A stretch of 64,000 nt of DNA from Psococerastis gibbosa (taxonomy: Eukaryota; Arthropoda; Insecta; Psocodea; Psocidae): assembly GCA_963971405.1 (NCBI GenBank), contig OZ020485.1, positions 6,696,001 to 6,760,000 on the forward strand. The letters are read 5' to 3'. The position numbers were made by a program, and so were the translations under genes. Within the stretch, counting starts at the first letter, position 1, and each line of letters starts with the position of its first letter. Below the pieces are notes generated by a model that was not told the origin of the DNA, searched no databases, and worked only from the letters and a program-made list of their open reading frames with translations. Shown here one piece after another: positions 11,281 through 56,625 of the stretch.

Positions 11281-14200
11281 CTTTTTCCAATGTGTCTTTT
11301 ATCGTCATTTTGTAGCCGCCTGCAAGATGCATTTCTCAATAAGTAACATATCTACAACATAGCAAGCGGAGTGACAGTGTTTTATGCAGACGTGCCTCAG
11401 TGCTCCTCTAAAATGTATTCCATATGAAGTTATCACAGGAGATACTATGCAGGCCAGTTTTTCGAAGTTGAGTTCTATAGAAAAGAGCAAATGAATGTAA
11501 CTTCATTCCTCGAGCCAATCCTACACCTTATCAATAAGTCGCTCCGGGAGGGGGTTGTACCTAACTGCTGCAAACTGGCTATTATAAGGCCCGTGTACAA
11601 AAAGGGAGACCGGACCGAGTTGTCAAGCTATCGCCCTATAAGTCTTTTGCCAGCTCTCTCTAAGATACTTGAAAGGATTGTAAACACGAGGCTGATTGTA
11701 TATCTAGAACAAAACAATTTGCTTGTTAAGGAACAATGCGGTTTTAGACCAAAGCGTTCAACAAGAAATGCACATGTTTGTTACATTCCTTGAAAGTATC
11801 TTAAACTCTTTTGAGAAGCGGCTTGATATACTGTGATCTGTCTCGCGCGTTTGATACTATCGACCATAGTATATTACTTGAAAAACTTAAACACCATGGG
11901 ATAGTAGGCCTGGCTGCCGACTGCCTCCGCTCCTACCTCAGTGGCAGACGACAGAGGGTATCTGTCAGTTTTGAGGCCCCAAAAGAAGGAGCCCGCAATG
12001 GTGACTTTAGTGTGGCCATTGACGGAGGGGATTGGTTACCTGCAACCACAGGTGTCCCTCAAGGCAGCATTCTCGGTCCCACACTCTTTCTATTATATAT
12101 CAATGACCTCACTGGCCAGCTGGAATCTGCTCCAGGTGCACCTTGTGCAAGTCTCTATGCAGACGACACAGTGGTGATACTTGAGGCGGAAAATGAAGGC
12201 GTGGCTGGGTCTGATGGTTGCGCCGTAATGTCCATAGTAAAATCTTATCTCGATAACAACCGACTAGTGCTTAATACCAGCAAAACTGAATACACTGTGT
12301 TCGCCACCAAAAATTCTAGGAAGCTAACTCCAGATATCAAAGTCGGCGACACGGCTCTCCGCCAGACGCAGTCTGCAGTGTTCCTGGGGGTGAAATTTCA
12401 CTCAGACCTTACCTGGCGCCCCCATGTTGCTAGACTGCCCAAAATTAGCGTCAGTGGTATATCTCCTCAGAAACCTTTCCTACCGTGTTGATATACAAAC
12501 ACTAATTACAGCGTATTATGCCTTGTTTGAGAGCAGGCTACGCTGCTGGGGAGGTTCTTCCGACGCTACTCGCATCTTTAAGATGCAGAAAAGGGCCATT
12601 AGGGCGTTGAATGGGACCTGGGACCAAAGGGTGTCATGCCGTCCCCTTTTTCCATTACTGGGAATTTTGACACTTCCAGCCTTGCATATCCTGGGACTAG
12701 CTGTACACGCACACCAATTGCCGTTCCGTCGCAATTGTGACATTCATGAACACGATACGAGGAACAGGGGCAGACTGGCTGTCGAAAAAAAGAGGATAGT
12801 GGCCACAACACGTGGACCAGCACATCTTGGCTCCAAAATTCTGACCAAACTCCCATTGGAGATGGTGAGCCTGCCTCATAAGGCATTAAAATTTAGGCTC
12901 AAAATCTTTTAGTCTCAGTCTGTCCCTATTCCTTTAAAGAGTTCATGGAGACTGACCTAGGTAGTCTTACTTCCTAAACCACTCTTCAGGGCTGTTAGGA
13001 ATTAGTTGTTTGTTTTGTTAGGTATTTGTATTTTATTTTTTGACAATTAGGGCACAAAATGTGCAGTTATATCTGGTGCCCTAATGATGACAACGAGAAC
13101 AGTTCATTATTAATTTATTACGTTTGTATTTGCAATTTGTTTTATGACGACGTCGAGCTGCAACCATGGATTGCATGGTTGCAGGCAAAATGACACGAAA
13201 TACACACGATTTTACGATTTACGATTTTACGATTCATCGAAGCAAATGCTTGTTTGATAAAGACTTCAGATTTATGACTGGCTGGATGGGAATATTTTTG
13301 AAAACGCCAAACAATAACTCACGGTTAGAGCACTACAGTATAAAGGATCTCAGTCGACCAGGGGCAGTGCCATGGCATTGCTGTTGTAAGTATAGGCTAT
13401 TTGCCAAATAGCAAAATAAGGTATACCTCGCTCCTCTGTGGGATCCTTGAAACCCAGCAGCAAGAACGTCCAGATCGTAAACAACCTCGTAGAGACAGTC
13501 AGAGTGGTTGATGGCCTTGTCAATGGAGCTTTTGAGCCGCTGTCGGCATGCGCGATGGTCCTTGACGTGCAGAGGGTCCAGGAGTCCCACTCCCGGCGCC
13601 CCCTGCATGTCTGGGTACGCCATTTTGATGAACGGCAACACTGACTGCACCTGCGACGCAACTGAGGAGTAGATGGCCACTGGATCGATAGCTGGGTTTC
13701 TCAGAAGTTCTAATCCTAATATTTTACCTGCAAAATTTCAAATTCAGATGTAGACCAATTGTTAATAATACTAATGTGCACCTTCCTACATCATACAAAA
13801 ATATACAAAATTACAGTCACAGCGCAATGGCACATCATACAAAATACCACTTCATAAGACCACAAGACACGGGTAATCTACAGTAATATACGCTATTCAC
13901 CACTGGAACCGCCTACCATTAGAGGTTAGGGCAGCTAGTTCACTCAGTAGGTTTAAGAAAATTATTAAACAATATATCTTAGATAACGCTTGAGACTCTC
14001 TCCGGTCTTATAATGTCGACGACAATGGATTCCCTCCCCCCTCTTCTTCTCTTGTTTCTTCTCTATTTAATTTTAAGCATCTATCTATTAATACAATATG
14101 TTTGTTTTTAAGGTTAGTATGAAAAGAAGACTTTATAGTCTTATTGTTCGCCTTTTGTTTTGTTTTTATTCAATAAAGTCGTTTTCAATTCAATTCAATG

Positions 14201-20200: not shown

Positions 20201-23200
20201 TTAAGAAACGGAAACTAATATACCTGAGGAATGATAAACGGCGCCATCTGCATATAATACAAGGGAAGATAGAGGGACTGAGGGCTCCCGGCAGAAGAAC
20301 AACCTGGTTGAAAAACCTGAGGCAGTGGTTTGACAAGCTTTTCAGAGCAGCAGTCTCCAAGATACAAATTGCCATGATGATCGCCAGTCTTCGACAGAAG
20401 AAGCATTTAAAGAAGAAGAAGAAGAAGTAGAACGACATCTTTATTGAATTTGTATTCAAATAGCAAACGTTTTGTAATGTAATGTAATGTTTCCTTCATA
20501 CTTTACTTCAGCTGCAGCCGACACTCGCCTTGCGCTACCGCTTTTCTTACGGCATATTCTGCCCGTTCCGTTGTATATTTTTGTTGGATATAGGACTCAG
20601 ATCTAGGATTACACTAATTAGGTATCGGCATAATTCTTTATAACGACAATTGGGCACAATAATGCAAAGGGGGACATACCAGCTCTAATAGACACGCATT
20701 CATGAATGACTCCAGCCAAACTCCCAATAGTGGGAGGGTCTCGAACGATCTAAAAAAAAAAGAAAATACAAGGAGCGTTTGATAAGTTCTAATAATCACA
20801 TATTTCTAATGCAGTCAAGAAGCCTTACCAAGTTGAATCCAGCGGACCAGAGCAGGTTCAAAGATGCAGATAACTTGGTTGTGTACACAGTGCCGGTAGG
20901 GAAACATGGTAGGACTTGTCCTGTTCACCTCCGAACTAATCGTGTGACTTGACTGCGTTTCAGCGTTTCCCAAGTGGTTCGGAATCCACTATAATCAGGA
21001 GGTCCCCTGTCCTATGGGCCCACACCGTGGCCTGGGACTGGGTCCAACCATACTACTACTACTACTAATGCAGTCAAGAAAATGTCTGAATTACTAATAC
21101 AGTAGGTAGGCCTTGATGAGACAATACGCGAAGTTTCATCAACCTGTACAATTAGTCGCGCGGCTATAATAAGAAGTGTAGTGATAAGCAGGAAATTGAT
21201 TGTTTTTGAAAACTTTAGACTCATACCTACGATACTCTTTTCATTGCTTTACACATTATTGCTTGTTTTATTTGGCGGCTATTCCACTAGTAAAATTTTT
21301 TTCAATTTTGATAATGTCACGGAAATGTCATTTATATTTTTACACCTCATTCCACTTGTCTTCAATAATTGACTATTTTTTTTCTTCAAATTTTTCCAAT
21401 TTTGTTTGCCAAGTTTGCCCGCCGTCTTTCTTTTAATTTTACAATCAACAAGAAATTTTATGATTTAAATTATGAAATAATTCGTTTGTTCTCTAGAAAT
21501 TAATTACAATTATTTATAATCTCCAGACGACGCCATTGTTTAATTTTAGTTTGTTATTGTTTGCAAAGCGTGATTTCATTCTATGATCATTGATCAATTA
21601 TAACATGCGGAAGTTAAAATGGACAATGAGATAGAGTAAAACAAAAATTTCATCAATTATTGCCGGAATATTGACAAGTGGAATACCCGGCTTATTACCT
21701 TGTTTTTTTTTAAATATTTTTTCAGCTACTGTATATCAATCAAATTGTTTCACAATTAGATTTTACATTTATTATATATTTCATAAAAGGGGGGCCCACC
21801 ACGGGATTTGTCCTTTGGGCTCCCCTTCCAACACTAATATACTCAATGTAAAACATGAATTAAAATGAATATAATATTATATTATGTGTCAGAATATTGC
21901 AGAAACCCTCGTACAGGGATTATAAATGTTTGAGTGATCAAGTGGTTAGAGGGCTTGCATTTCAATCGGAGAGCGGTAGTTCGAATCCTCAAGGGGATCA
22001 GATTTATTCAATAATTCAGAGAAAAATAGAAGAGCAATGAGTCAATCGTCCAGAAACCATCGGTACTTTTCAGGACTTAGCCTGACTTAGCACCCACTCC
22101 CCAAACAACAAAATAAATAAATAAATATCGACTTTTTTGTTGTATTACTAAGCTAACCTAGCGGAGTTAGGGCTATAAGCCCTCTCTTACACTCAACTAG
22201 GAAAGCCCGGGACCGCCTGCTTTACATGCCCTCCGAAGCATGGCCAGAAAATATAGCAAGTGTGGAACTCGAACCAACAACCTTTCGGGTGAAAGTTGGA
22301 GTCCGTTCCACTACTCTACATGTCCTGACAATGGGCTACACCCCAAATTGTTCGATGACTGTGAGACCGTTGCCTTTAGTGACTATTAACACAGCAGACA
22401 ATGTAAGTCCAACTAACCCCTTGTTAAATAATTTTCCCAGCAAAACACTTCTTAAAGATCCAATGTTAGAAATGTGTTTAAATGTAGGGCCTACTAGATG
22501 TATTACGGCTGGAAAGGTCCGACATATTGATCTAATGAACTTTAGAGCACTGGGAAAATCTCGCGATTCAAATGCCACATATTTAGGGGGCGGCCCTGGA
22601 GAGCTGGGGAAAGGCGTATAGTCATCACACATTGCTTTCACAACTGGAATATGACCACAAGTAACGGCTTATAACAAATAATCTGAAATCTGGAAAAGTC
22701 TGGAATTTTTTTTTAGACCAGGGGGAGCATGTTTTTATAGTACATTATGCAGGCATGACTAGGGCATTTTTTGTGAGTTGTGATTAGAAAACAGTAGGGC
22801 AATTGGAATGGTTGGATGTCTATTTAAATAATAAAGAGCTTTCATACTCTCCTCGTGTATTAACTTAAAGCAAACTTTCAACACAAGTCCATCAACTCAT
22901 AATAGTTCATAAAAGTCTAATTTTTGTGTCAAAGTTCCAAAATTGGCAATTTAGACTTTTGGAAGTACCGCCCTGCTCAAATCAAAGTTAAGCAACTACC
23001 GGGATTGGTTTGAAAATGATGTTTGCAATCAAGATTAGGAAATGAGCTCACAGACGAGTTTTTGCACAAGTTTTAATAGTCTGCAGCAGAGAAAAGTTGC
23101 CAGATCAACCCACACGACACCAGCTGTTCTGCTGTCAGCGATATGACAATTTAGTGGCAACCGAACATGTTACCGTATGTCGTGATTGTTGAAATGACAG

Positions 23201-26200: not shown

Positions 26201-29200
26201 AACTTGTTAAGGCGCCCATTCCATTGACTGACTAGGGCTATTTCCAAAAACAGTGACGTGGTAGCAGACATTCAAGACTTAGGTTGCGTTTCCACTGATC
26301 TCGAATTGCAGAATGCAAATGACATTGACGGAAATTTGAATTTTTCTTTTTATAGAAATCTATTAAAATGTTTGTACTTAACATATCCCATGACGCCATT
26401 TTTTAATTTTAGTTTTTTTGTTTGTGATTTTACTGTATGATCATTGATCAATTTTAACTATGGCATAGAGGAAAATAAACATTTCCGTCAATGTCATTTG
26501 CATTCTGCAATGCGAGGTCGGTGGAAACCACGCCTAAGTCTTGAATGCCTGCTACCACGTCACCGTTTTTGGAAATAGCCCTAGCCGGTCAATGGAATGG
26601 GCACCTTAAGGCAATGAAAATAAAGTCTTCTTGCTAGTAATGAGTTTTTTTTTGGGGGGGCTTCCTTTCAGCCAAAGAATCCTCCTCCTTACAGGTCTAT
26701 TGCTGCCAATTTTTCCGCACTATCCCTCGTCGAGGACTTCTTGACGAAGTTTCGGGTCGTCCTAACAGAGTCAGACGTTCTACAGTACAGTTCCAGGGGT
26801 AAAGGGTATCCTAGAGTTTGGAGTCGGAGGCCCAGAGCCTCACATTACAAAGCGAACTCTCAGTCTTTTTAGACGCCGCTGTTCGGGCATCTTTCTCCAG
26901 AGTTCTGCCTTATCTCTCTATCCATCTGCCAACTAGTGTACGAACAATGACGGCTTACGGATAGCCAAAGGAAATAGGTTAAGGTACTCCGCACACTGTT
27001 TGGTTATAGGGCCTAAATAAATATAAAACATAAGGAAAACTTATTTGAAAAATTCACGAATTTTTATAATAATAATTATTTAGCACTTTCACACAATAAA
27101 GGTTTCAATTTAGTTTGCATTGTTAATCGAGGGTGCCATAGCTTATTTACTGGCCAAATTCTTAGTTCAAACTCGTAAAAAGAACTTGACTAAGGCCCCC
27201 CTTTTCCACCGACCGGCTAGGGCTATTTACAAAAACGGTGACGTGGTAGCAGACATTCAAGACGTAGGTGGCAATTCCACCGACCTCGCATTGCAGAATG
27301 CAAATGACATTGACGGAAATTATAATTTTTCTTTTTGTAGAAATCTATTAAAATGTTTGCACTTAACATATCCCATGACGCCATTTTTTAATTTTAGTTT
27401 GTTTGTGATTTTACTGTATGATCATTGATCAATTTTAACTATGACATAGAGGAAAATAAACATTTCCGTCAATTCTGCTATGCGAGGTCGGTGGAAACCC
27501 CGCCTAAGCCTTGAATGTCTGCTACCACGTCACTGTTTTTGTAAATAGCCCTAGCCGGTCGGTGGAATGGGCGCCTAACTGAGATGTCGTTAATTACTAA
27601 GGGAGCACCTAATATACAGTCTGTTTAATACAGGATAGAACCTAGTTTTATATTCCAAGAGTAGGCCTATGTCAACACTTTCTGTGTGCATCTTTGCCGT
27701 GGAAATATTGGAAAAAAAGGTGACCTACAACACAGGTGGAAAGTGTAGCAACACAATGGCCAAAACTCATATAGGTAAGTGTTTTGTTATAGGAGGCCAA
27801 AAGCTGTGTTTTAATGGGCCGCATGACATTGCTTGTACAGGCGTTCAGCCAAGCCCACTGATGAGTCCCAATAGCTTAAAAGTCTTCGGTATTCTTTAAT
27901 AAAGTCAAGTAACAAACTCGAAATGCCTTCATCTAAATGTAATTCGGTATCGGAACCTGCGGTTGGACCTTAGCTTGCAAATGGTGAAATGTTTCCCAAC
28001 CGTTCTAGTCTTCTAGATATGGTATGGAGGGATGGATTTTGATACAAGCTGTGAAGAATAGAATTAGTGCATTTCAAATGTGGATATACTGTTTTACTGT
28101 ACATAGACGAATGCTGCGCATATCCTGGAGTGATCGTGTCCCTAATGCTGAGGTCCTCAGCCGAATCAATACAGAACCAGAGTTGATGCTGACGGTTAAG
28201 AAACGGAAACTTATATACTTTGGCCATATAATGAGGAACGAAAAGTTTCACCTTCTGCATGAAATAATCCATGAGAAGATAGAAGGACAGAGGGCTCCAG
28301 GCAGAAGAAGAACATCCTGGTTGAAAACCCTGAGGCATAGTGGTTTGGCAAGAGCACGACTTCCCTTCTCAGAGCAGCTGTCTCCAAGGTCCAAATTGCG
28401 ATGATGGTTACCAATCTTCGATAAGGCGGGGGAGGGGGGGCAGGAGGTTGGTCCCCACCCCTCTTAAAAAGGCATTTCGTAAAAGAATGATTAAAGCTTA
28501 GCATGTAATAGTAGAGCAGTAGCAGGCTCACGGGGGGGGGGGGGGGGGGAGGCAAAAAATTAACAATAATTACAATCACGAAAGAAGAATGTAGCTGCAT
28601 TCGTTAACAACAAAAAATACTGAGTTGCAATTCAGTAAAAGTATTGGGCAGGAATCCAAAATAACGTCGCCAGGATGTAGATTAGTTAAGGGTGTGTGTG
28701 ATGTAAGGTAGCTTTCGAAGCAAATCACCACATTCTGCGACTGCCGCCAACCATGAACTGCGGCTACAGAGCTTATTTACAATATCGTCTCTTCATAATC
28801 ATATCCACAATCCGAAACGTTTTGTGAGGCCGCGGATTTGGGACAAAGCAGAACAATTTAGCGGTGTCCACTGTCCACACTATGCCGCCATTGGCTGTTG
28901 ACACTGCCAACGCGGCAAAGCCAATACAATGTGGACGGGGCCGTTGGACAAATAAACGATGAGGTGCTCCACTGCTCCAGGTGATAAACGAAGAAAGAAA
29001 TTACCTTCATATCCGTGAGAAAAGACAAGTGTATCGGCCAGCTGATCAGACAAGAGTGACTCCTTCTTAACATCAAACAGAAGACACCATTGAGGGCACC
29101 AATGCAAGGCGAACAAGAAAGACCTCGCAACTCAAGACAGATGGACAAGGGGCGAGAAGAATGAAGAAGACGAAGTTAGAAAAATTTGGTGGTCTGACTA

Positions 29201-32200
29201 GAGAAGAAAAATTTATAGGGGGGGGGGGGTTGAAGTACAGTATCTCTTCCCAAGTTCCCAACGTCTTTATACACAGCTGATTCTCAAGTGATTAATTGTT
29301 TATTAAAAGAAAAATTTAGGTTACCCCTAGACAGAACGGCATTCAGTACAATTAGCATTAAGTGGTTGAGCCGCATACTTACTCATTAATAAATGTCAAT
29401 AATAAACAAAGCGTTCATCATAAAGCGGTGTCCTTTTCGCAATTTAATTTTTCCCGCGCGAGCCAACGAGGACGCTCGCCAAGATGTACAGGGCGATAAC
29501 AAATCATAAATATAAATCTGTTGTAATTTTGAGCACACTGCTATCTTTGCGGTAGAAAGCTCAACGCTTAGGATCAGCTAGGAATATCACTTTTATAAAA
29601 TATCAAATGAGTAACTGAGAAGACTTTCATAACAAGAACCTGAAGATTTTAAGATATGATATTCAAACCGAAATGCAACAAATAGCATTTCAGAGAAAAA
29701 GAAAAGGGTGTTTCTATGGCTTGTCTGCTTTTTTTTTTTTTTTTTTTTTTTCAATTTAATAATAGCTCTACATCGGCCTACAATGCGTAGATTTCACCTG
29801 TTTTTTCTTTTATATTTTCCCAGCTATTCAGACCGTGTAGTGCAGTGGAAAGGATTCTGCCTTTCATCCCAAAAGTTCTAAGATCGAGTCCCGAATAATC
29901 GTCGAAGGATACAAAAGCAGCCCAGTCCCAGTCCCAGGTCCCAGACCACCATAGTTAAATGCAAGAAAGGGTGCCAAAATAATTATGATCCCATACAAAG
30001 GGCAACATACAAAGTTTAGAAAAACTACAAAAGAGATTCTTAAAATGTGTGTACTATAGACAAACGGGTGTCCACCCACATCTAATAATGCCTTACGAAA
30101 CATTACTAACTCACTTTCAGATGCCCACGCTAAAGGCAAGATCAAAAATTGCAATAAAAGTAGTATATAATATATTCCATTCTTTCATTGATTCATCAGA
30201 GCTTTTAGAAAAACTTTTAATTAATACCCCAAATAGACGATCCAGAAACAATGACTTTTTTATCTTCAAACTCCCCGAATTAATATATGTGCGAATACTC
30301 CCATTACATTTACAGGTTAACTAAAATATTTAATCATAATGCTACATATTTAGACATTACCGATAACAAACGTAAATTTATTAAAACATTGGCTATATTG
30401 AATCCAATAGATTACCATTTATACATTGTAAAGACTTGGTTAAAGTGTATAAGATAAGTTATGTTTTGGCGTATACACGCACAATAGATAAGTTAAGTAC
30501 AGTTTAAGTTAAGTTAAGATTTGCATATCATTGGACTTTGTCTGTTTGCAAATAAATGTTTATTTATTTATTTATTTTAACTTATGATATTCCGGTAAGG
30601 TGTCTTCAAAAACTTGTATAAAACCAATATTCTCGTGTATGGCTCATTTTTACTGTTCTCATTTTAAGAAACGTTCTTGGTTCTTTTGCAGTTGTTAATT
30701 AAATTTAACTATATCTTAGGCGCCCATTCCACCGACCGGCTAGGGCTATTTACAAATACGGTGACGTGGTAGCAGACATTCAAGACATAGTGGCGTTTCC
30801 ACCGACCTCGCATTGCAGAATGCAAATGACATTGACGGAAATTAGAATTTTTCTTTTTATAGAAATCTTTTAAAATGTTTGTACTAAGCCCGCCTAAGTC
30901 TTGAATGTCTGCTACCACGTCACTGTTTTTGTAAATAGCCCTAGCCGGTCGGTGGAATTAGTATTGTTTGAGATAGACACTCTAAAGTCTCTTTATGGTA
31001 ACGATTGTAGGATAATTTCAGAATACTAGAATACAATGAATAAATAAATTTTAGAAATTCGTCCGGAGATGACTGATTGATGAGACGGGAAGAGGTGGCA
31101 ACCATATTTGAAATAGTCGACTAGACTGTTATGTGTTTATGAGAGATACAGTATGTTATTAATATGTAAGTTTAGCTTAATAGTACAATAGTAGGCCCAT
31201 GTCTAATTTTTATATATTTTAGTTTAAAAAAAATTGTTATAGGTCTACTAGTGCGACCTTACAATATAACGAGGAGGTTACCTCTTCAGCCAATGTTAAT
31301 TTAATGTCAGTGTTATATATACCATATAATACTACAATGTATTACAATTATTGTGTATAAATTATTTTTGTATATTCAATATATGTTTCATTCATTAATA
31401 TAGACGAAATTTTCAAGTCAATGAAAGGGGCAAAGCAAATACAGTAGAAGTTACTAATGACCTTTTGATTAAATGATAACATTTCGGAGCCAGGCACAAA
31501 ATAATAAGCCAGGGCAAGGTAATTAGCCAGGTGTCAAAAGTTGGGCGCTATCAGGTAGACATGCAAAACCCCGCACGCATTCCAGCGATGGCTCATCAAC
31601 TTCCAGCCAACAAAACTTGTTCAGCAACGCTTTAGCGTGACTACTCGCGTCAAAACCAGGCAGTGCACCAACACTTTAAAATTTACTAGTTTTGAGCAAA
31701 ATGTGGGAATTTCTGTTTTTTAAAGTTTTTCTGGGGCATAAGAAACCACACCAGCATTTACTTTTACAGTAGCTCTATTAGGCAATTTGTGATTAACATA
31801 ATACCGGGGTTTATTTTTTAATACCGGTTTAGTAATACCCGCAGTAGTGTCCCGTGACAGTGTTAAAATATGCGTGGGAAATTCAAATTAATAAATTATT
31901 GGAATACAAGTGAATGGTAGCATTGTTTCATAACTGTAGGAAATAGCCTACTAATAAACATTCAAATGTACAGGTAGAATTTTGAAATGTAATAATAATT
32001 TTAATTATTGTGTCAACATCTAAGGGAAAAAAAATTGAAAACTCACCAAATATATTAATGTATCAATTTGAATTTCCCGCGCATTTTGCATAAACTCCGG
32101 CATTATAATAATAGGATCAGTTTATATCAGTTATATTCATGCCATTTACAAGCTAGCTAGGGCTAGCTTCTGGGCGTCGTCATCAATTGCAGTTCTTTTT

Positions 32201-35200
32201 TTTTCCCCCGAACTATCCTGGGACCACTTTTCAGTATTTCTTCAGGATAGTCGTGTCATATTTTCCTACTGTGGGCTAAGTTCTGGTTAAGGTCTTTCTT
32301 CTTTCATCTTGTGGCTCAAGATGAGCCATGCCAACTCCTTCACAGCACACCAAGCCACCTCGGTGATCGCATATTCATTTATCAATTTGAATTTCCCGCG
32401 CATTTTGCATAAATAATTTATTTAATTATAATAATCTCAAATCGCCATAATAGGATCGCAGTTGATCTTAGTTAAACGTCTCTTATTCTTGATCCAGATA
32501 TTGAGGGGCGCGGCCACCTCCCTTAAACATGAATCTTTTATTTCGCTGAAACAGCTGCATCACTGCTTCGTGAGGTTTCCTCAATGGGGACAAAATTTTG
32601 AAAGGAAAACTCCACTCAAGGCCAAACCATTTCTACTACACTTTACTTGACGTGAAATTGCACACATGCAAACATTTTGTAAAAACTGCATAAAACAATT
32701 TAGCTCAAATAAAAGCCAAGAAAAGTTCCCATTGTGTCCATTGTATGACATTATTGAGCAGATGGCGAAGCAACAGCTTCCGAACGAGTCAGTGGTGGAC
32801 GTAACACTCAACTAAAGACACTTAGCATTAACTAGTGCGTTTATCTTGTATTCACAAAATGAAAGATCATGAGCGAAAACATTATTTCACATGAGAAATA
32901 ATCTTACCTCAATTAGTCCAAGTATAAGTGGCAGCCCACCCTGTCCCCTGCGCCATATTTTTTCAACCGTCTTCAGCCTCACTTGCTTATCTGTAAATTG
33001 AGTAGTATAGATTAATTTAATTTCAATACAACAAATAAGGCAGTTTGTACAAATCACATCACGCTTTTGGAATTCAAATTTAACACAACAAAAATTGAAG
33101 ATTTCACGATGTTGAGTCTTCCCCGGAAAAATGTTTTTGAGAGAAACCTTCGCCCAAATACTAAAACGACTGTGTTAGGAAAAAATGACAAAATGTGTCA
33201 AGTGTCAAAATTTGAAGCCTATAGTGAATGAAATATTTTGTGCGAAGGGGCGAATGACAATATGAGATAGCTCCGTTCGTGAGCACTCTCCATCATATCC
33301 AGGATTGACACAACAATCATTTATTCCCTTCAGAAACATATGCTCCGTTCCTGCAACAACCCCATTCAAATCCAGCACTTTCACTTAGGCGGGGTTTCCA
33401 CCGACCTCTCATTGCAGAATGCAAATGAAATTGACGGAAATTTTTGTTTTACTTTATGCTATAGTTAAAATTGATCAATGATCATAGAGTAAAATCACAA
33501 ACAAACAAACTAAAATTAAAAAATGGCGTCATGGGATATGTTAAGTACAAACATTTTAATAAATTTCTATAAAAAGAAAAATTCAAATTTCCGTAAATGT
33601 CATTTGCATTCTGCAATGAGAGGTCGGTGGAAACCCCGCCTAAGTCTTGAATGTCTGCTACCACGTCAACGTATCTGCATTCTGCAATGAGAGGTCGGTA
33701 GAAACCCCGCCTCAGTGGGCCTACTATGCCGTTTAGTATTAACTCAGTTTTGGGGGGTTCAAAATGTAAACAATAATTTTGAAGAGAACTTGTCATTTTA
33801 AAATTATATTGTTTACATTTTTATTCCCTTGCTTAGGCGGGGTTTCCACATACGTCAATGGTCAATGGTAAATGTGGTATTGACGTTTTAGCAGACATTA
33901 AAGACATACTAAAAATGTCTGCTACCACGTCAAAACCATATTTACCATTGACCATTGACGTACGTGGAAACCCCGCCTAAGATTAAAAATAATCGCCATA
34001 ATAGGCCCGCTGGTATGTTGTTCATCTTCATACTGTACGACAGCTTTACTACTATACAAAACGTTTAAAATTGTGAACTTCAACTTTTCAAGGCGAGTCA
34101 TTCTAAAAAATGTCGGTGCACAACGATCTCACAACGATATAGATAGTATATGTTTGAAAGCTTCTCACAAGAGGTACCAAAAGCAGCAGACCAACTCCAA
34201 AAACTTATTGCTAAACTGTCGGAACGCTCGTTTATAGTGCTATTATATTGTATATGAGTAGATCTAGCAAACGACAGTAACAGGTTAACAGGTGACAGGT
34301 TACGGACTGTTTTTGGACCATCTAACAAAAATAGGAGCTCTGTAGCCATTGAAAAGCTCTCAGATCAAACTATGTCGCCGATGCCGCTTGGAGGAAGAAA
34401 AAATCCTTCAGAACTGCAGTCTCTATGTTCTGGAGGTGTGCACCTATGTAAAGAAGGTGTATGGCACCTTGCCTAGGCTGGGTGACACTCATGCCTGTGG
34501 TACTAGGGGCAGGGATGACCTCGTGATCGCTATGCATAGAACCAGTAGGTATGAGGGTAAACCAGGCTGTGCAGGTGCTATATACTTACAAGGGCTGCCT
34601 AGGAACATTAGGGAGGTGGAAGAAATGACAGCTTTTAGAAGTAAGCTAAAGAGTCACCTCATAGACCAATGCTTACATGGACATTATGTGGAACTAGACA
34701 GTTGGTGTTCTTTTCATGATTCTATATGTATATTGCTCTAGGTTATTTTTTAGTTGTTTATTAATTTATTGACTTAACGCCTATTGTTTCATACTCAATA
34801 CAAAGATAAAAAAAAGTCCTGTGCCCCCTCTACATGACATTTCACCTGTCCCACGTCCGCGAGCAGTACGGGCCTATAACAATAGACTATACTGTGCTAT
34901 AGATCACCCATGATCCAAATGGTAGATTGCCAGAAATAAAACGGAATAAAACCCCAAAAACGTTACAAAAGAAACACATCAAATTTTAAAAATAAAATAT
35001 GCCGTCCCCCTAAACATGAAGCTGAGCGATTTGAAGACAGTTTGAAGAACGCACCGGCAAGGGCAATCTGTATGAATAAAAGCGTCATAACTTTGGATAT
35101 CAAATAATGTCATATGTGTCACTGCTTCCTGGCACGCCACATCCAGCCTTGGCAACTAGATGGCCCTCAAGGAATAGTAAATTGTCAAAAATACCACAGA

Positions 35201-38200
35201 CAAATAATAAGTGTTGTTACTTCTAGCCTCAATGACAGTAAGGGGAAACCTTACTAGCCTACGAACTAAAAAAAATTGAAATGCTGTTGAAGAAAAGTGA
35301 TACCAAAAAAGTTGAGAAAATCTACGATCCAAAAAACTCATTTAGGGAAGTTCCATACCGGTACAGGATTTTCAATTACACAGCAAGACGTCCATCGTGC
35401 AGTTTGACAGTGATCTGATCTCAGAAATTAAATACACTAGGAATTGTTTTATATTTTATATGCAGTATATATGTAATTTTTTTTAAAGGTTAAACCGCGT
35501 ACAAACAATTAAATGAATGTATCCGATTAACCTCTTCAATCGCCTCACTAAGTCACTGAATAGGTACTTGTGTCGAGTTGAGACACGTCTCCAACCGCAA
35601 GGTGTGTAGGTACTCGGACATGCATACAAGCACGCTACCACCTTGCCACCGAAGTCGCTTATGAAGTCGCGGAATGAATTGAAGGCTCACAGGACTAATC
35701 AATGAATATAACCAACGATAATTTCTTGAAACCGACGGCGACCTTGAGATAATTTATCTTCACAGCAAATATTTGTGTCAAAAGCCAGCAAATTGAAATA
35801 CAGCCATTAAACTGTGAGAAATATAAATTTAACTTCATAGACGAATGCGTTTGACGAATATTCAGCCAGTGGGTTCAGCGTCAAAGAAATGTAAGCAAGA
35901 ATTATCCAGATTTCAGTATTTGTGAGAAAAAATCCACGAGTGTTAGTGCGATGCCCAATATGAGGTTGCAAGGCAAAATAAACTTAGACTTGTTAAAAAA
36001 ACTATCTGCTATCAATCAGTTAAGCTTTAAAACGTTCAGTATACTTTAAGTCTAAAACAGACACTGCCACAAAAACGACAATATTACATTAAATTCAAAT
36101 AAACATCATACTGATCAAGATACAAACGCTATATCTAAGAGGACTCGTTCCCATACTTGGTAAAGTCGAGTTAACGCCCATTACAATATCAATGGTAAGC
36201 ATATTATCTCAGCTGGTCCATTGGCACCACTTGTCCGTGTGAACCAGTTTGCCAATGGCTAGAAATTCATCATCCAATAACCAATACTAATCATGGGGTC
36301 ATTGGGCAGGGCAAAGTTGAAAGGGCTACACTACATGTAGGCCTACACACACAAAAATACTTAATAATAATAATAATAATGTCAATGTAATTCCAAGAGC
36401 TGAGTTGAAAACTGCTGACATCGCTCTCAAAGCATAAGGAAAAACGTTTATGGCATGGGTATTTCCAAAGGCGCGGCCAGACTTATCCCCTGAAAAGGGT
36501 TGAGGAGATTGTGTTCCCAAGAAACAATAAAAGAGGAATAAGGGGAATAAGGCGCGGAAAAAGTAAAAGTAAAATAAGTAATTCCAACAGACTCAGTTTA
36601 GAATAAGTTCTTTTTATGCAATGTTAGGATAAGAGTGTTTAAGTTAAGCGTATGTATTTTGGAAATTGTATTGTTTTTGGACGTGGGTTAGGCAGAAAAA
36701 GACTTTCTAGTCTTAAGTCTCGCCCCGTAAATATAAGACGTTTATTATTATTATTATTATTAAAAGAGTCTAGCCTCCATACAGCTAAAACAGTTTAGTT
36801 GAATTAACAAAGAAACATCCCACATAAAACTTCAATAATAATGTATAGTATATCTTGAAAAATATCAGCAGGCAGAATCAAATTATACTACTTCTGTCAC
36901 GACTCTTACGACTAAATCTCTACGAGTAACTTGACGGCGGTGTAGTAATAACGGGACATGATGAGATTTACGAGGTAGAGAGTTGCCAACTATTTAACTC
37001 GTGCTCAATTAGAGTGCTGAGGTGAAGGTGAAGGCAGCTTCCTTGACACAGGAAGTAATGCCGAGTGTTTATGTTTATCACTACCATTCAAAGCCGTAAT
37101 TTTTTGCTGATAAGCCAGTGGCGTAACCACTGTGCGGGGGGGGGGGGGGCAGCATTGTTGGGGGCGCACTTCGGCTCCCAGTTCCAGGTTTGGGTTTAAA
37201 AAAAACCTTATAGTTGAAATTATTAAATCATCCTAGTATTTCAGCCTTATTCTTGATACAACTCAAGATGTATCTTAAATTGATCAACTCTCTGTTGTAC
37301 TGAAGAATATCTTAATAAAAGTTTAAGAAAATTATATGCTGCTTCTGTTGTTACTTTATTTAAAACTAAGTTTTCCATCATTATTTTATTATTCATGCTA
37401 CAAACTCAAGATGTATCTTAAATTGATCAACTCTCTGTTGTACTGAAGTATATCTTAATAAAAGTTTAAGAATGCTGCTTCTGTTGTTACTTTGTTTAAA
37501 ACTAAGTTTTCCATAATTATTTTATTGTTTATGCTACAAACTTTTTCTTCCCATTCCACAATTGACTATAACTCATAAAAAACATGAAATAATGAGACAA
37601 GGTAGGGCGCACCAAGGGAGGGGGGGGGGGCATCAATTTATGGTATTTTGCCACGAAATTGAAATGGTGAAAGTTGTTGAAACCGCTTTGTCCAAAAGCA
37701 CAATATATTGTCCTAGTTTTGATATTGATCAGGCTGTATGTTTTGAATAAGAGAATATTGTCTTTATTATTTTATTTTTAATCCAAACGCACGTCGTAAA
37801 CTGGACAATTAATCTTTTTCTGTGGAAAATGCATGTTTCCTATATTTTTTTAGTGTAAATGGATTGAGTTTTGGTAACGTTCCCACGCTACTGCGCTTGC
37901 TGTCTTAATATTAAAATAACTAATATAATTACACCTGTATAATATACTATACAAGCAACGAATTAACAATAATAATTGACTAGCCTATTACAAAAGTACT
38001 ACAATAAGTCTACAGTACATGTTTTTCATGCTTGCAGACAATCTTTATTACAATATGAAATATTCACATTCGCTATTTAAAGTGTGCTGAGCTGTTAAGG
38101 TATTTAGACAGAGCTTGGTAAACAAAGGGGAACCCAATTCTTTTAATTAATTAGGGAAATCTTCATTTTCATTTTCCACCATTTTTCCCTGTCCGGTACT

Positions 38201-40949: not shown

Positions 40950-43900
40950 ATGAAACGTGCCAGTCGGACAAGGGGAAAAAGATCTGGGTTCCAAAATGAT
41001 AGAACAAATAAATTTAGTGATAGCCGGGTTTTGAAAGAACGCTCTTCATCCAGCAGCTCAGAAGGTATTTTTATTTTATATACAAAACAGAAACCCCACG
41101 CCACATTAGACTGCGAGCTTGCGCTACTGTAACAGTGGTATGGAAATTGGCGAGCCCCTAGCCCCAGTCTACCCACCCACTATATTAAATTATTGATAAA
41201 CAGTAAATTGTGAAGTGTTGTCCGTTGATCTATTAGCACATTGCGCTTCATTCAAATACAACACCAACTACTTTATTTGGTTCATAGTAGATCTACGACC
41301 AGACGTCCTTTTCGACTTTCGAGACCTGAGGCCATTTCTTCGTTTAGAAACATTTTAAATTTTTAAACATTGATAATAATTTCCGCTGTTATAATGATGA
41401 CGAAATGTTATGTTTCAGATTCCGCAAATAGTGAAGAGGGCATCTCTGAGGCTCCATTTCCCGTAGCAATGTGGGATATGAATCAATGCGATCCACGCAA
41501 GTGTTCAGGTCGAAAATTAGCTCGGCTTGGCCTTATTAATACGTTATCATTGGGACAGCGTTTTAATGGGATTGTCCTGACTCCGGTTGGTACGAAGTGT
41601 GTGTCCATGGAAGACGCAGACATTGTCAGAAAGCATGGTGTAGCTGTTGTGGATTGTTCATGGGCCAAGCTGCAAGAAACTCCCTTTGGGCGAATGAAAA
41701 CACCTCATCCAAGGTTGCTCCCTTGGTTAGTTGCGGCTAATCCAATAAATTATGGCAAACCGTGTGAGCTTTCTTGCGTTGAAGCTCTTGCTGCAGCCTT
41801 TTCTCTCACAGGTGACTTATTACTTCTAGGGCTCTTAATATACGAAATATTCCAGAGATCCGCATGTGCTTCTTATATATATATATATGCCTAAATCATT
41901 TTAACCTTGTTACGTAGATTGGAGATATGCTATTTCTATTATCACAATTTATTTCTTAGGAAATGCTTTCAATAGAATTTAAGGCAATAGATAATTTGTA
42001 GGAAAGGTTGCTTTCATTGCCTTACTGGCGAATTAAGATATCCCAGTTGCCTAGTTAAATGGCACCAAACCCTTAAGACTTAATGCTGCGGGAGGAGGCA
42101 TTAGATATTAGATTATTATTAGATTATTGTTCAATTAAAATTCAATTAAATATGGTCAATTTAATTAATTCTTCGTTTTAGGTTTCAGGGAAGTTTCTTC
42201 GCTGTACTTGAACAAATTCAAGTGGGGCCATTCTTTCCTTGAATTGAATCATGAAATTTTGAGTAAATATGGAGAATGTAAAACTAGTGCTGAAGTCGTA
42301 CAGGTACAAACATCATTCTTAGAAAAGGAAGCGTTGGAACGGAATTCCCGACGAGGTGAGTTCTCATTAAGTTTTGCACGTTATGTGCAGCAGCAGCAGC
42401 ATCATTCTTCAAAAATTTGGTACATCGCTTAACGGAGTCTTATTAGGATGGATGACCCCGAGGCAATTTTTGTGCAACCATTATTTCTGGCGCCCATTCT
42501 TTGCGATAAATAAAAATTTGTCTGACATACTCGTAGTATGTTGGTTGGAGGCACCATGAAGATATTATAATCGTTTATGGCCTTATAGGGTAGAGACGTC
42601 ATGACAGACAATTGGACACCTCCACAGTCCGTTTTTATAGTAAAACCCAATTTTGCAGGAAATGTCGATCGTTGAGCCATAAATGAGCTGTCATGATGTA
42701 GAAAATACAGTATATTCCTCTAAATTTTGATGCCGAGTGTGAGGCCGTCACTTGTACCAATTGGCCACAGTTTGGGACGGTACATCCTAATGCAGAGGAA
42801 CATTTATTCTACATTACGCCATCTCAGCGATCGATATTTTGTGTGAAATTTTATTTGTTACACACGTAAGGTCCCCCCCCCCCCTCCTCCTGTTTACATT
42901 TAAACATTTAAATAAAAAGCTAGTAATTTCTTAAATTTCAAATAAATTATTTCAGATGATGATTCATCATTGTACCCTCCTTCGTACAGTGATGATGAAT
43001 ACCTTCATGAAGAAGACTCATCTGCAGCCAATGACATAGAAGAGAACTTGTCACGTTTAGATATTGATGACAGTAATAAATCTTTGCCTACACCTGTTGC
43101 AAAGGATATTAGTGAGGACAAAATCGTTGACGATTCGTATAATTTGAACACGGAGGAAAATATTCTGCAGACTCCTAAAAGAAGGCCTGTTGATTGTGAC
43201 CCTACGTTTTCTCCTGTCGCTGGTAATTATTTTATCTAAAGAATTTTGTGGAGCGGTGAAGATTTTATGATGAATATATTGTGAAATTATTATAGACGTT
43301 TTCATAGCCTTACAGTTCTTTCTCATCCGGTGCGCCTTTCAGTTATTTACTGGCAGCTTACAGTTGTACAATTCTATTTTGCTTGAAATACGTCACACAT
43401 TTAGATAATCTCATCTGCTGACTAGAACGTAAATTGTGCTGCAGTTTCAACGAGCCCTTGTACGCCCGGTCAAGGACAGCTGACAGGAGTAGCTCGCACT
43501 GTGAGGGATGCCTCCGCCGACCTTCATAAAGCAGTTCAGCAATGGAACGACTTGCATCTTGTTGGGCTTCGCCTATTGCGAACTCTTAAGGAATCTGGCC
43601 TGACAATAAGGTATGTACGTTATGTACATTATGTATATACCTGCTGGAACATTGATGGGTACTATTTATTTGCTGTAACTACGTTGCTACAGATAGCTCC
43701 TAAATTGCACGTAAAATCTTAGCTTAACAGTATTTGACTATTTCTCTGTGGTGAAGTGTGGTAAATATTTAAGTTTATTATTCTTAACTTCGGGAGTAAA
43801 TAATTTTGAAAGCCTCATTCTTCCCAACTTGCTACATTTTCTGGCCATGCTTCCGAGGGGGCATGTAAAACAGGCTAATTCTCCTAATTGAGAGTAAGTG

Positions 43901-44687
43901 AGGGCTTTAGAACCCTAACTCCGCTAGGCTTAACAAAAAGTTATAGTAGGTATAGAACAAAAAGTCATTATTTATTATTCTTACTTTAAGAGTAATTATG
44001 GGATAAGACAAAAATTATTAGAGTGCTTTATAATTTTCCAGATCAGTTGAAGGTTCAGAAAAGAGAGAAAAGTTGTTGAGAGAACTATGTAAACAACTAA
44101 TTGACGTTTTATCTGGATGTGAGATATGTGCGAAATCAATGAAGAATTTGTCGCAACAAATGCGTGCAGTCGGTTTATTACAAAAGGAAAGCTCACCTAT
44201 GTTCCTAACATGGCCTCCTACTAAATTTGGTACGTATATAACAGCGAAGGTTTGCCCCGATTCTCCCATGCGTCCCTATTCATCTGTTTTTACGGTAAAC
44301 TGTGAACGCAATTTTCGTAAATGTTGATGTGTGAATGGCTTTTCATGTCAAAAGTTTTGGAAGCGAATTCGAAGTGCTTAACGCATATAAAATGTACTGT
44401 ATCTTAATTTCTAATAAAATGCCGCACAAATCGTTACTCAAGGGGCTATTTGATTCATTACTAGCCTTAATAGAAGTTTTCAACTTTCAGGCGAAGTATT
44501 TGACAAGATAGCTCAAGCTTATACGGAAGAGTTGACTGTTCGGAAATGTATCGTCGAAAACGTTGCTGAATGTAACGAAGACAGTGAAATTCCGTTATAT
44601 TTGGGAGCGTGGATGTTCCCCACTTACATTACGGCAGCAGTCGACGCAGCACTTGAATCATTGTTGCAGGAAACTGGGCATCGTTAA
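40950..44687 (+). CDS. TSR3-CINP: TSR3-CINP fusion protein (seven exons, 499 residues)
   Basis: Exons 40950-41064, 41419-41811, 42182-42355, 42956-43222, 43445-43610, 44042-44229 and 44491-44687 total exactly 1500 bases, with GT-AG borders and matching phases throughout. Residues 1-49 are basic and Ser-rich. Residues 50-227 are TSR3, the aminocarboxypropyl transferase that makes the final acp3 modification of 18S rRNA hypermodified pseudouridine ([58 protein letters not shown]). Residues 228-316 are an acidic linker. Residues 317-499 are CINP, a CDK2/CDC7-binding checkpoint protein ([35 protein letters not shown] at the C-terminus). No in-frame Met lies between residues 132 and 404, so the CINP half has no obvious start of its own. 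An AG at 40938-40939 could be the acceptor of a 5'UTR exon. Confidence 0.9.
43830..43945 (+). mobile_element. SINE S2 body, plus orientation, headless
   Basis: TTTTCTGGCCATGCTTCCGAG through CCTAACTCCGCTAGGC matches the S2 body at 22135 and 56415 in the other orientation. The tRNA-like head is missing. It lies in a TSR3-CINP intron between exons 5 and 6. Confidence 0.8.
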
Positions 44688-46373: not shown

Positions 46374-49300
46374 TTACAAATGAGAGTTTTGCATCTTTGA
46401 CACCAGTCTCTTGAGCTGCTCATACGTAATCCACATTGCAATATTCCAACTAACCAGTCGACAAAATGACGGGGTAAATCTGTAACAAGGAGTGGACCAA
46501 ACTATGGGAAGCTTGTATAAGTTAACCGAAATTAGAGGATATAAAAAAAATTGGACTCGGCGGGATTCGAACCCACAGTCTACGCCTAACCGGGGCGTCG
46601 GTTCGAACCCCACCAAGTCCAGTTTTTTATATCCTGTAATTTCGGTTATAATGATAATAATGATAATAATATCAACCAAAGTTAATTTAATGCCAGTGTT
46701 ATATATGCAGTATATACCATATAATACTACAATATAACTTGTATAGGTGTTGAAAAATTTAAATATTTATTCAATAAGGCGCTTATTCTACCGACGTCAA
46801 TGGTTCACTATTGACGTGTTTGACGTGGTAGCAGACATTAAAGAAGTGTAAAAATGTCTGCTACCACGTCAATATCAGCAATATTTTGACTATTGACGTC
46901 GGTGGAATAAGCGCCAAATTGAGCCTCAGACTTGGGGACATCTGGGAATGTCTTAGAAATCCCACCTATATTATTCCATTAAGGCCACTGGGTGGTTTTG
47001 TACCGATAATGAAGAGGTTAGAAGCCAATGTGTACAAGTGACATTCTCTTACTTTTTGAGATAAGTGCACCATTACTATCTCCAAGAGATGTGAACAGCT
47101 AAACGGTATATCTCTGTCATACCTAGTTTCTGTGTTATAAGGGGTTGAAAATATTGTCCACCGTTAAAAGGATGTACAGACTTTCAAACTTCAACTGCGT
47201 TTTCCCCGAAATCAGCCTGGCAGTACTTGTAGACATTGGCTTCTAACCACTTCAAATGCACCAAACTGCACAGATAGAACTCAAGTTACAATGTCTTACC
47301 CTTTGTAGAAAGCACTAGGTCCCTCCTTGAGCATCATCCTGACACTGCAGTCTATCGCCCCTCTGTATTCTCCAGCTGCCGAGTTCATGTACCGGGTTTT
47401 TACCACATCAATCGGTGACGCCACAAACGTTGTGCATAATCCTACAATCATAATACCAACAGTGATAGTTTTTCTTGGCATCAGAGGGTTCATTCACAAC
47501 ATAAATTGAATGGAGCAACTTGATATATTGGAACTAAGTAAACGAAAGTTAGATCTAATTTTCAGGAATGTTGTGGCGGTTATACTTTTATAATGGACCA
47601 CCGTGGCTTTATGACCACCTTTGAGAACTCTTTTGAGCTCTACTATTGAATCTCATTCCAAAATTAGATAAAATTTGCATATTTTTCGTTTCTGGATAAA
47701 GAGACCTATTGTACGCGCAAAATAACTGTTTAAAAAAACGTTTGTAATTAATTTGGATTCAAACAACTATGCACCTCAATAACTCTTTGAGTTGCCGCTG
47801 TTGGTAATTCCTTTCCTGAGTTCATACGAAGCTACGATCGCATTGTGCCTGGAGACTCGCATAAGTACGAGTACGTTGCAAACTATGCCACCAAATGCCT
47901 CAATTTCTGATTTTCTTATTTTATTTATATGTTTTATTATTTAAATTATTTTTTCATTAGTGGTTAAGAAATGTTTTTGTAAAACTACACCCACCAGCAA
48001 TTACCGCAGATGTGAAATGACAGGTTATATTATCTTCCATCAGCTTTTTCTTGAGGAAGTAGTCTTTGATGGAATCGTAGCACACGATTTCAGACACATT
48101 TACTATAGCGTTACGGCCTATGTTGGGTAGAACACCTAGAACAAAAATTCTTGTTAGTATTTGCTGGTTGGCTGCCAAGGAAGACCTACCGGTACTGCTT
48201 TAAAATTAGCTACACTTTTATGTCAGCTTTTGTTATTCAATAAAGAATGAAAAAATATAGAATAAATGGCGCCTAACCATGAGCTAAGTAATGCTGATAG
48301 CGGTGAAACGTTTATTATGGATATTATTATATTATAATATTAGATTATGGCCAGATACTTCAAGCTTAATCTCAGTCACAACTTTTTGCCGCTTCATTGT
48401 TTACGCTGCGGATACCCATCATACCTGCCTGATCGCAACCGACTTTTCGGCTGCATACGTAGGACTTGGGTTGCAAAAGCGTTAAAAAAATTAATACCGG
48501 TTTTTACTTCTGAAGGGTTATGACAATTCATTTTCTTTTACTTTCACTAGTTTCTTTTAATGTTTGCGCATTCATTATTCCCAACCATATAGTAACACTC
48601 TAGGCCTTTCGTTTCAAAGCTCAGTTCCCTAATAACTGGATTATCCCGGCTAATAAAAAAATTTAAGAGAGTTTTCATAAAATAATAAATAAATTAGCAT
48701 GATCAAGCAGTAGAACCCAGGGTTGCTGCCGAGCCTCTGAATTACAATCGTAGAAGTCTACGCAGATGTTGGCGAAACGTTTGGAAGTGTGCTTTCAGTT
48801 TGACTGCAGCCTATTATTCACAATAATGAGTGACAGTAAGTTTTGCAAAGTTAATAAGGAGACTATTATGTATGTATACGGCCTATCATCCCGGATTCTA
48901 CTGCTTCATCACATAACTCCGGCCGTGAAAGCCTTTGTAATTACATAGCACCACTATTACCTTTCCAGAGGCCCTTGACGCCCTCTAGCTTGGCTATTGT
49001 GCGGTAGGCCTGTAGAGTGGAGGTATACCGAGCACCTCCTTTGTTAGCCTGTAGGCGCACTTTAACAACGTCGGTAGGCTGCGCTACAAGGACGGCTAGA
49101 CCGCCAGTCGTGATACCCGCCGCCACTCGCACAGAGAAATAAATGTCTTCCATTTGGTTTCCGCCTGAATGCAAAAAAATCAATGTAAGGTCAACTGAGC
49201 ATCATTCCCACTCGCTATGAACATTATCCGCCTAAAATTTTAGATCTATTGGTGTAATATAATAAGACTCCTTGTAGCTTCCTTGTGTGGTCCTGCTATC

Positions 49301-52300
49301 GGATTATTATTATTTTTTTTTTTTTTTAAATTGGGGTACAGGTGTTACCTGTGTGCACTTAAGCCTATTGGGCCTATTGTGCCCCCTACAACAAAGAATC
49401 TACATATCTACATCAGTTCCTCGAGGCCTATTTCCCTCAGGAGAGCCAGGACCTTGAGGGGATTTAGAAGTGGTAGGTCTTTTACATGTAATTGCAAGTT
49501 TCCCAAGCATGCTGCTCTTCTACGTGCGATTGCATCGCAGTGAAGGAGGATATGCTCGGGGTCCTCCGCTCCTTCGTTACAGAATCTGCATGCTCTAGAC
49601 TCTCTGACACCTATGTTGGTCAGATGTCCATTCAAGTTGCAATGCCCAGAGAGGAATCCTGTGATCACACGCAGATGTCTCCTGTTCATATTAATGCATA
49701 CTTGGGCTCTTTTGCGCTGGTGGCTTCCCAGGAGCATTTTGGCTTGCCGAAGGCCCGGCAATGAGGTCCAGTATTCAGCCACTTTCAGGTTCTCCCTGCC
49801 TTTAACAAATCTGCGGGCGAGGGTTTCCCCAACACCGCAAAAAGGTTCGGGTCCCGTAAAAGGGGAGGTAGCTCCCTATCGGATTATAGTTAACTGGCAA
49901 ATTTTGGTCGATTTCATCCTGCGGGCCTACTATGCCGTATGGTATTAACTTATTCTTATGGGGTTAAAAATGTATACAAAACAATTTTGAATATCACTTT
50001 CTATTCCAAAATTATCTGTTACATTTTTAATCCCAGCTTAAGATTAAAAATAATTGCCATAGTAGGCCCGCTGGACGGGTAAACAACTAAATACACCAAC
50101 TAATTTGTAAATTGTCATCTACCTATACATGAGTAGGGCCTATTGCTCTGAACACTTGTAACTCAAATTAATCACCAATCTTTGGGTAAAATTTCAGCTT
50201 AATCGGTGTATTATTGTAGAATTCTTATACGTACGAGTAGGCCTATATTGTATTTTATATTCATTTTAAATTTTCTTTGAGCCCATCTGCCCCAGAATTC
50301 AGTCTTATATATAACCATTTAAAACCCCATAGTGTAAAGTAGTGTATTAAAAAAGTGACGTATACTTTGGACTTAAATGTACGCTAGTAGAACTTGAACT
50401 GTGGGTTATCTGATACTGCATGTGTGTCACGAGGGTTGGTGACTCATGGCCCTGATTTCGGTAGAAGAGACAGAAAAATTATAATACGATAATTGCTGAT
50501 TGGGGTCCAAAGGAAAAAAATCGTAACATATTATTTCAAATCACAAAGCTTTCCTTATACTACTTATAAATTGGAAAGCCAAAAATAAAATTTGTGTTAA
50601 TAACAAGCATTATAACAGCATTTTGAATTTGAAATGTAAGCGCGCGCGTCCGCCTTTTTGACCTGAGGAAGTTTCCAGTCCCAGTCCGCCACTGCCGTCA
50701 CTATTACGCACCGTGAATGATGGTGAATCGGTTCAAAACTTACATTTTGTAATTGTTTGGTTCTAGAAGCCCCAGGAACTCTGTGAGGGGGAGGAGGTTT
50801 TAGTTGAAATTACTTTTGGTCTTTGGTGTTAGTTTTATTGTTGAGTGCTACCCTCGCACGCCGCAGTTTTGACTCGATTCACCACCATTTACGGTACAGT
50901 ATATACAGTAGGCTACATATATTTTATTATTATATTTTTTTTTACATAGATAAAGGTGCAGGATTTTTTTCAGACATTTGGTGGGGGTTTGTGATTCTTA
51001 TTAATGTTACGTTATTTAATATGATTTGAAACCTAAGTTGCTTACCTGTTACTGAACGTTGATAAAACAATTTAACAGGCTCATACAAGCCAATCCTAAT
51101 TGAAGCAAATGCCATCTGACGCTGCAAACCCGCGTTTAGCCCATTGTACAGACTCCTGAAATATTGTTACTACAATGTAATGAACTTCAACTCAATGGAT
51201 CAAAAGGAGATGAGCGGCATTGCAGTCGGTCTGTCAGTTCGTTTGATCATTGGTTTGTGTGTAAATCGAATTTTGTCATTTCGAGATTTCAACGGATTTA
51301 CGTGTTTTGAGGTCCCAGGAAACGAAAAAAGTTGGTTTTACGAAATGTCTGTCTGACATTCTCGTAACTCGATTTGCGGCCAAACTATAGAATTTGGTGG
51401 AATTCGGCATGTAGGTAGGTCAACAAAATTACTGTGCCAGTTTTTATTTCTTGAATAACTTCATTTTGGGGATTTAAACTCCAAAAACTCGAAAAAATGA
51501 CCTTTTTTTAAATACGGATTCGACGATTTCTTTTAAAACCCCCAATGATGGCTTGTATAAAATGACTAAAAAATATTTTTTCTGATGAAACTTTCTATAG
51601 AAGCTTTCTAACTTCGGATATGTTTTTTAGGTGCTGATTAGAGTAACAAAATCGATTATATAGGTTGCTTCTCCAAGCAGCCTTTCTTCCGAAGAAAAAA
51701 TTGTTTTTAGATGAAATTACGGTGTGGATAATCCATGCCCCAATAAATTGCATATCCTGCCATAATTACTGTGTAGTGTGCCCGTTATAGACTACGCACT
51801 CTTACCGATCAATGATCAATGCAATGGATGCAGTTAGGATCAGGAAAATCGAGGAAGCCGAAGTTGGACAATTATTTACCATAGGCTATTATCTATTTCA
51901 GTAGTACTTATTTTATTCATTTAGGACCTTTTATGGACCCAGGCCTAGTTATAGTGGCCCATAGGTCCCTTGTCCAATGCCAACGACCCCATAGATTTCG
52001 AACATTATTTGCATTGTTTCCGTATGCATTTTTGGTCATTGGCCAACGGTATATTGGTATTGGTATGCTGTACGTTCTCGATGTCAACTTACACCGGCTA
52101 CAAGCGATAATGGACAAGCTGAGACAAGCTTACCATTGATGCAATGAAACAGGCGGAAGCATTGCTTAACATGACTTAAAGTACAGATACGAGTCGGTCC
52201 CTCCACTAATTAATAAATAGGAAAGTATGTACGGGTTCACTCGTACCGGTTTTAAGTAATAAAACCTTTAACCAACCGCAGGCCTTCTTGTCGCGATATG

Positions 52301-56414: not shown

Positions 56415-56625
56415 ATATAAATAAATATTTACTTTTTTGTTCCTTTACTAAGCCAGCCTAGCGGAGTTAGGGCTATAAAGCCCTCTCTTACACTCAACTA
56501 GGAAAGCCCGGGACCGCCTGCTTTACATGCCCTCCGAAGCATGGCCAGAAAATGTGGGACTCGAGCCAACAGCCTTTCAGGTAAAAGTCGGAATCTGTAC
56601 CACTACTCTACATCTTCATGTAGTA
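56415..56625 (-). mobile_element. tRNA-derived SINE S2, minus orientation
   Basis: On the minus strand: A box GTAGAGTAGTGGTACAGAT and B box GTTGGCTCGAGTCCCAC, then the S2 body and an A/T tail at 56416-56432. It is about 90 percent alike to 22135-22332 by eye. Confidence 0.85.

Follow-up and report, generated by a model that had tools for sequence, protein, structure and literature searches.

In humans, TSR3 and CINP are encoded by separate genes. TSR3 is the 18S rRNA aminocarboxypropyltransferase and belongs to the TDD superfamily, whose active-site motif is E/DxS/TW (PMC7704012). What is annotated as Fer4_RLI belongs to the TDD domain, of which it forms the N-terminal part (PMC4275035). Eukaryotic TSR3 proteins are reported to have, almost always, RGG repeats at the N terminus and a highly negative C-terminal region (Burroughs and Aravind, 2014; PMC4275035). 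Addition of the acp group by TSR3 is a late event, found on cytoplasmic 18S rRNA and not on nuclear precursors (PMC13201660). CINP and AIRIM (C1orf109) form the lid region of an ATPase composed of AFG2A and AFG2B. The whole assembly is the 55LCC complex (AFG2A-AFG2B-AIRIM-CINP), by which RSL24D1 is recycled from cytoplasmic pre-60S particles (PMC12339376; PMC12332008). The published model contains two CINP molecules per complex. In addition, 55LCC acts on proteins of the replisome; the authors of this finding consider that role likely to be independent of ribosome biogenesis (PMC11055677). The closest described fusion is TSR3-Noc2 in the microsporidian Nosema bombycis (PMC4275035, 2014).

We analyzed a window of 64 kb in contig OZ020485.1 of Psococerastis gibbosa, in which TSR3 and CINP are found in a single reading frame. 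The gene model rebuilt from the sequence has seven exons on the plus strand, between positions 40950 and 44687, and all six introns have GT-AG borders. The spliced coding sequence is 1500 nucleotides long including the stop codon TAA and encodes 499 residues in one frame, with a predicted mass of 55.7 kDa. Exon 1 (40950-41064) contains the start ATG, encodes a basic and serine-rich N terminus (residues 1-38) and ends in phase 1. The bulk of the TSR3 domain is in exon 2 (41419-41811, 393 nucleotides), which includes a 10-residue stretch at residue 62 and the sequence DCSW at residue 117. Exon 3 (42182-42355, 174 nucleotides) encodes the C-terminal part of this domain, up to residue 227. Exon 4 (42956-43222, 267 nucleotides) encodes an acidic linker, residues 228-316. 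Intron 4 (43223-43444) is in phase 1. The CINP domain begins with a 23-residue stretch in exon 5 (43445-43610), continues in exon 6 (44042-44229), where the motif TWPPTKF starts at residue 428, and is completed by exon 7 (44491-44687), which ends with LLQETGHR and the stop codon. The earlier note on this DNA had proposed seven phase-matched exons with GT-AG borders and one 1500-base frame running from TSR3 into CINP, and the rebuilt model bears this out. Compared with the whole window, the spliced protein matches its own seven exons and four other places, the latter all at E values of 2.6 or higher.

Several general properties of the sequence bear on whether the two halves belong to one gene. 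G+C contents at the three codon positions are alike in the TSR3 half (0.49/0.46/0.37) and the CINP half (0.54/0.42/0.38), which counts for a fusion. The CpG ratio is unequal between the halves (0.76 and 1.02), which counts against it. With a donor matrix set by hand, the donors of the six modeled introns score between 0.83 and 7.93. The donor of exon 1 is weak (0.83), a further point against the fusion.

The TSR3 half contains a complete enzyme domain at residues 53-215, as had been claimed. Residues 53-85 match PF04068 (Fer4_RLI; E = 9.9e-13), and residues 90-215 match PF04034 (Ribo_biogen_C) over positions 1-126 of its 127, with an E value of 3.6e-52 (175.9 bits, cut-off 29.9). Among the NCBIfam models, NF002621 (DUF367) is above its cut-off (180.8 bits vs 152) and NF053630 is below it (101.1 vs 300). 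Only two solved structures were matched with E values up to 1, and both are TSR3 (5ap8, E = 7.1e-28; 5apg, E = 2.2e-22). The active-site motif is kept as DCSW at residue 117. Like known TSR3 proteins, this half combines the Fer4_RLI-like region, Ribo_biogen_C, the DxSW motif and an acidic stretch following the domain. Unlike them, the acidic stretch continues into a CINP domain rather than closing the protein, and no RGG repeats are found in the fused protein sequence. The RGG repeats are a usual accessory feature outside the enzyme domain, and the N terminus here is only a short basic and serine-rich stretch.

The CINP half is also complete, in agreement with the claim of a full domain ending in LLQETGHR. 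Residues 322-499 match human CINP with an E value of 1.7e-15 over nearly the full length (query residues 6-183, residues 11-212 of the 214 in chain 8cih). Three further CINP chains were matched with E values between 2.7e-15 and 2.9e-14, and the remaining three of the seven matches are unrelated proteins (E = 0.64-1). The identity to human CINP is 33%, as counted by the tool in a two-sequence alignment, and TWPxTxF and the C-terminal ETGHR are shared. No CINP family is among the three Pfam matches for the spliced protein. One of these, HDOD at residues 353-485 (E = 0.016, 15.2 bits, cut-off 22.9), is a chance match, since the same residues match CINP at 1.7e-15. In these respects this half resembles the CINP of 55LCC; it differs in that it is without a start codon of its own and has TSR3 placed ahead of it.

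Differences from human CINP are found at sites for which mutations have been described. Mutations of L162, S181 and S184 in human CINP impaired binding to SPATA5/SPATA5L1 (PMC11055677). The equivalent positions here are V, L and G, none of the three identical, by a hand count on the two-sequence alignment only. The mapping assumes an offset of two between 8cih and human numbering, and the letters match those given in PMC11055677. These substitutions are compatible with binding to SPATA5/SPATA5L1 or with its loss, and neither support nor exclude it. The human N-terminal motifs PRKP and RKIK are PGQG and RTVR here, and the loops are shorter. Judged from the match positions, the CINP chains in 8rhn and 9lgo have 23 and 28 extra N-terminal residues relative to 8cih; 8RHN is a structure of 55LCC (PMC12339376). 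Mutants of PRKP and RKIK did not affect complex formation (PMC11055677). Because of these longer N termini and the lack of effect of the N-terminal mutations on complex formation, an N-terminal extension on CINP looks tolerable.

The two domains are joined by exon 4. Its 89 residues include 24 D and E and seven K and R. The exon is open and has the correct phase on both flanks. After dinucleotide shuffling, its frame stayed open in 14 of 20,000 sequences, compared to 48 for exon 2, 123 for exon 6 and 1759 for exon 5. Between 42400 and 43440, the only open phase-1 segments of about 200-400 nucleotides bordered by AG and GT are exon 4 and three shorter forms of it. Since eukaryotic TSR3 has been reported with an acidic C-terminal region (PMC4275035), exon 4 is most simply read as the acidic tail of TSR3 itself, running on into CINP. 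The region is internal here and not terminal. We also considered TPKRRPV in exon 4 (residue 300) as a relic of the CINP N-terminal TPRKPV. This is speculation, and the match to human CINP starts in exon 5, with the TP of TPGQGQ.

Methionines in the fused protein are located at residues 1, 56, 59, 102, 131, 405, 412, 425 and 476. The previously noted lack of an in-frame Met between residues 132 and 404 is therefore correct, with 131 and 405 as its neighbors. In the sequence, both complete domains are read in a single open and correctly phased spliced frame, within which a full CINP has no in-frame start codon. This suggests that the locus is one gene encoding a 499-residue TSR3-CINP fusion, and that the fused product is probably the main form.

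The arrangement of the exons also allows each half to be produced alone. All of introns 1-4 are in phase 1 and the lengths of exons 2, 3 and 4 are divisible by three, which allows exon 1 to be spliced to exon 5 without a change of frame. This route to CINP alone, which the earlier note missed, would produce a protein of 221 residues, near the size of human CINP (214 in 8cih). The four other exon skips that we tried are also in frame, and the fact that exons 2-4 can be skipped in frame counts against the fusion. If intron 4 is retained, a TAA at 43237-43239, five codons past exon 4, would end a 321-residue TSR3. If intron 3 is retained, a 252-residue TSR3 would end by 42432. Three AATAAA signals in intron 3 (42509, 42911 and 42941) are all located beyond this stop and would allow a TSR3 mRNA to end within the intron.

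These features could mean that alternative splicing of one locus yields two or three products, CINP alone, TSR3 alone (in the 321- or 252-residue form) and the fusion, the last being one form among several. The in-frame junction of exons 1 and 5, the size of the resulting CINP, the early stop in intron 4 and the signals in intron 3 argue for this. On the other side, three symmetric exons of the same phase would occur by chance about once in 27 cases if phases were equally frequent. In addition, a scan for eight poly(A)-signal hexamers found neither AATAAA nor ATTAAA in intron 4, only AATATA at 43273. We consider this explanation unlikely.

A second possibility is that TSR3 and CINP are two ordinary adjacent genes, with CINP expressed from its own unseen first exon or promoter, and that the frame runs open from one to the other by coincidence or reflects occasional read-through. 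The separate human genes favor this arrangement, as do the AATAAA signals in intron 3. The first AATAAA past the stop of the fusion is at 45249, about 560 bases downstream, which counts against the fusion. To look for a CINP first exon, we scanned 41812-43444 for ATGs from which an open frame extends to a GT donor in phase 1, compatible with exon 5. Among 13 candidates none had an adequate donor, the best scoring -0.92 compared to 0.83 to 7.93 for the modeled introns. As a control, 74 segments of equal size elsewhere in the window were scanned in the same way. The mean per segment was 28.6 candidates, of which 2.3 had a donor scoring at least 0.83; in 20 of the 74 segments no candidate reached this score. 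Upstream, between 36000 and 41064, there are three adequate candidates. The best (37592-37601) has a donor at 37602 that scores 5.36, above five of the six modeled donors. Because 20 control segments are also empty and three candidates exist upstream, the scan, weak by its own control, makes a nearby separate CINP first exon only unlikely. The earlier view that CINP is without an internal start unless a first exon has escaped notice holds within exons 4 and 5; for the scanned interval it is likely, and the upstream candidates weaken it. Three further points speak against two genes. Ending TSR3 would require intron retention, neither exon 4, exon 5 nor the intron-4 frame entering exon 5 contains an in-frame Met, and the linker exon is open, with matching phase at either border. 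Overall, we regard two separate genes as quite unlikely.

As had been suggested, the fused chain might also be made and then split within the acidic linker, giving the two proteins. The length of this linker, 89 residues, and its probable disorder, judged from composition, count for such a cut. On the other side, no positive evidence for it was found, eukaryotic TSR3 usually has an acidic C-terminal region anyway (PMC4275035), and absence of the NPGP motif from the fused protein rules out a split of the 2A type. We consider a cut in the linker very improbable.

A dispersed repeat with about 80% identity between copies is found in intron 5 of the TSR3-CINP gene (43824-43932) and at 22154-22265 and 56455-56555. 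Another repeat family has at least five copies in both orientations, pairs of which are 88-95% identical (1038-1343, 26201-26606, 27183-27576, 30714-30885 and 33383-33672). At 37247-37542, a 136-base unit is repeated in tandem about twice, with 90% matches. The heptamer AGGCCTA occurs nine times in the whole window, compared to about 2.6 expected from base composition, and is possibly a signature of the lineage. Pfam was run on the spliced protein and, of the 252 frames in the window with 60 residues or more, on 20. Remains of a retroelement are present on the plus strand at 11428-12488, where RVT_1 was matched in two frames (2.1e-20 in one; 7.5e-07 in the other, just under the cut-off). The minus strand has a zf-RVT-like frame at 49411-49875 (0.00012, under the cut-off). 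Exons of a mitochondrial carrier are located on the minus strand at about 47296-49180, convergent with the TSR3-CINP gene. Mito_carr was matched at 47296-47493 (2.5e-10) and at 47957-48199 (0.0025, under the cut-off). We read the carrier as an uncoupling-protein type; near 49.0-49.2 kb, one more exon was recognized by eye only. A weak tRNA-Thr(GGT)-like sequence was found by Rfam on the minus strand at 46551-46621 (31.5 bits, cut-off 29). By eye, its flanks resemble inverted copies of each other, and it may belong to a mobile element.

No description of TSR3 together with CINP was found in the open-access papers searched, and the word CINP is absent from the text of PMC4275035. The earlier note knew of no description of the fusion, and this result agrees. 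Joining TSR3 to another ribosome-assembly factor does have a precedent of the same kind in the published TSR3-Noc2 protein of Nosema bombycis (PMC4275035), although the partner there is Noc2 rather than CINP and the host is a microsporidian. The TSR3-CINP fusion may already be annotated in animal protein databases. Relatives were sought in viral, bacterial and archaeal collections. For the CINP half, three pattern matches in viral contigs were obtained, for the TSR3 half one in viral and five in genome contigs, and for an alignment of the CINP sequence in the window with human CINP 87 in genome and 86 in viral contigs; none was confirmed. Because of the composition of these collections and the use of exact 8-residue patterns for the single-protein queries, these searches have no bearing on animals.

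The TSR3-CINP fusion probably originated from two neighboring genes on the same strand through loss of the TSR3 end and the CINP first exon. The stop codon five codons past exon 4 may be a relic near the former end of TSR3. In the fused protein, the TSR3 half would carry out the late acp transfer to the hypermodified uridine in 18S rRNA. The CINP half would pair with the homologue of C1orf109/AIRIM in the lid of AFG2A-AFG2B, whose ATPase is expected to take RSL24D1 off cytoplasmic pre-60S particles in this system as well. The fusion would tether the 40S acp transferase to the 60S machine at the 55LCC lid and fix the ratio of both.

The earlier note had linked 18S rRNA maturation to a CDK2/CDC7 checkpoint. 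This is not the likeliest connection, given the role of CINP in 55LCC on pre-60S particles (PMC12339376; PMC12332008), although 55LCC also acts on the replisome (PMC11055677). Since the CINP complex acts on cytoplasmic pre-60S particles and acp addition by TSR3 is also late, the two halves are likelier to be connected through late ribosome maturation, with one half for each subunit. The fusion may also be linked to replication. One can go further and propose a conserved scaffold of two enzymes, in which every 55LCC in a whole animal lineage would carry TSR3. Late cytoplasmic 18S hypermodification would then be coupled to release of RSL24D1 from pre-60S particles, and a switch to the exon 1-exon 5 splice would free CINP for its replisome role. 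We hold this proposal to be improbable. To our knowledge, such coordination of the two subunits is not known from elsewhere.

Should the fused protein be made, it would provide independent evolutionary (‘Rosetta stone’) evidence that the partner process of CINP is ribosome maturation. It would also be a natural test of coordination between the late steps of the 40S and 60S subunits and, through the other role of 55LCC, would tie replisome proteostasis to an enzyme that modifies the 40S subunit.
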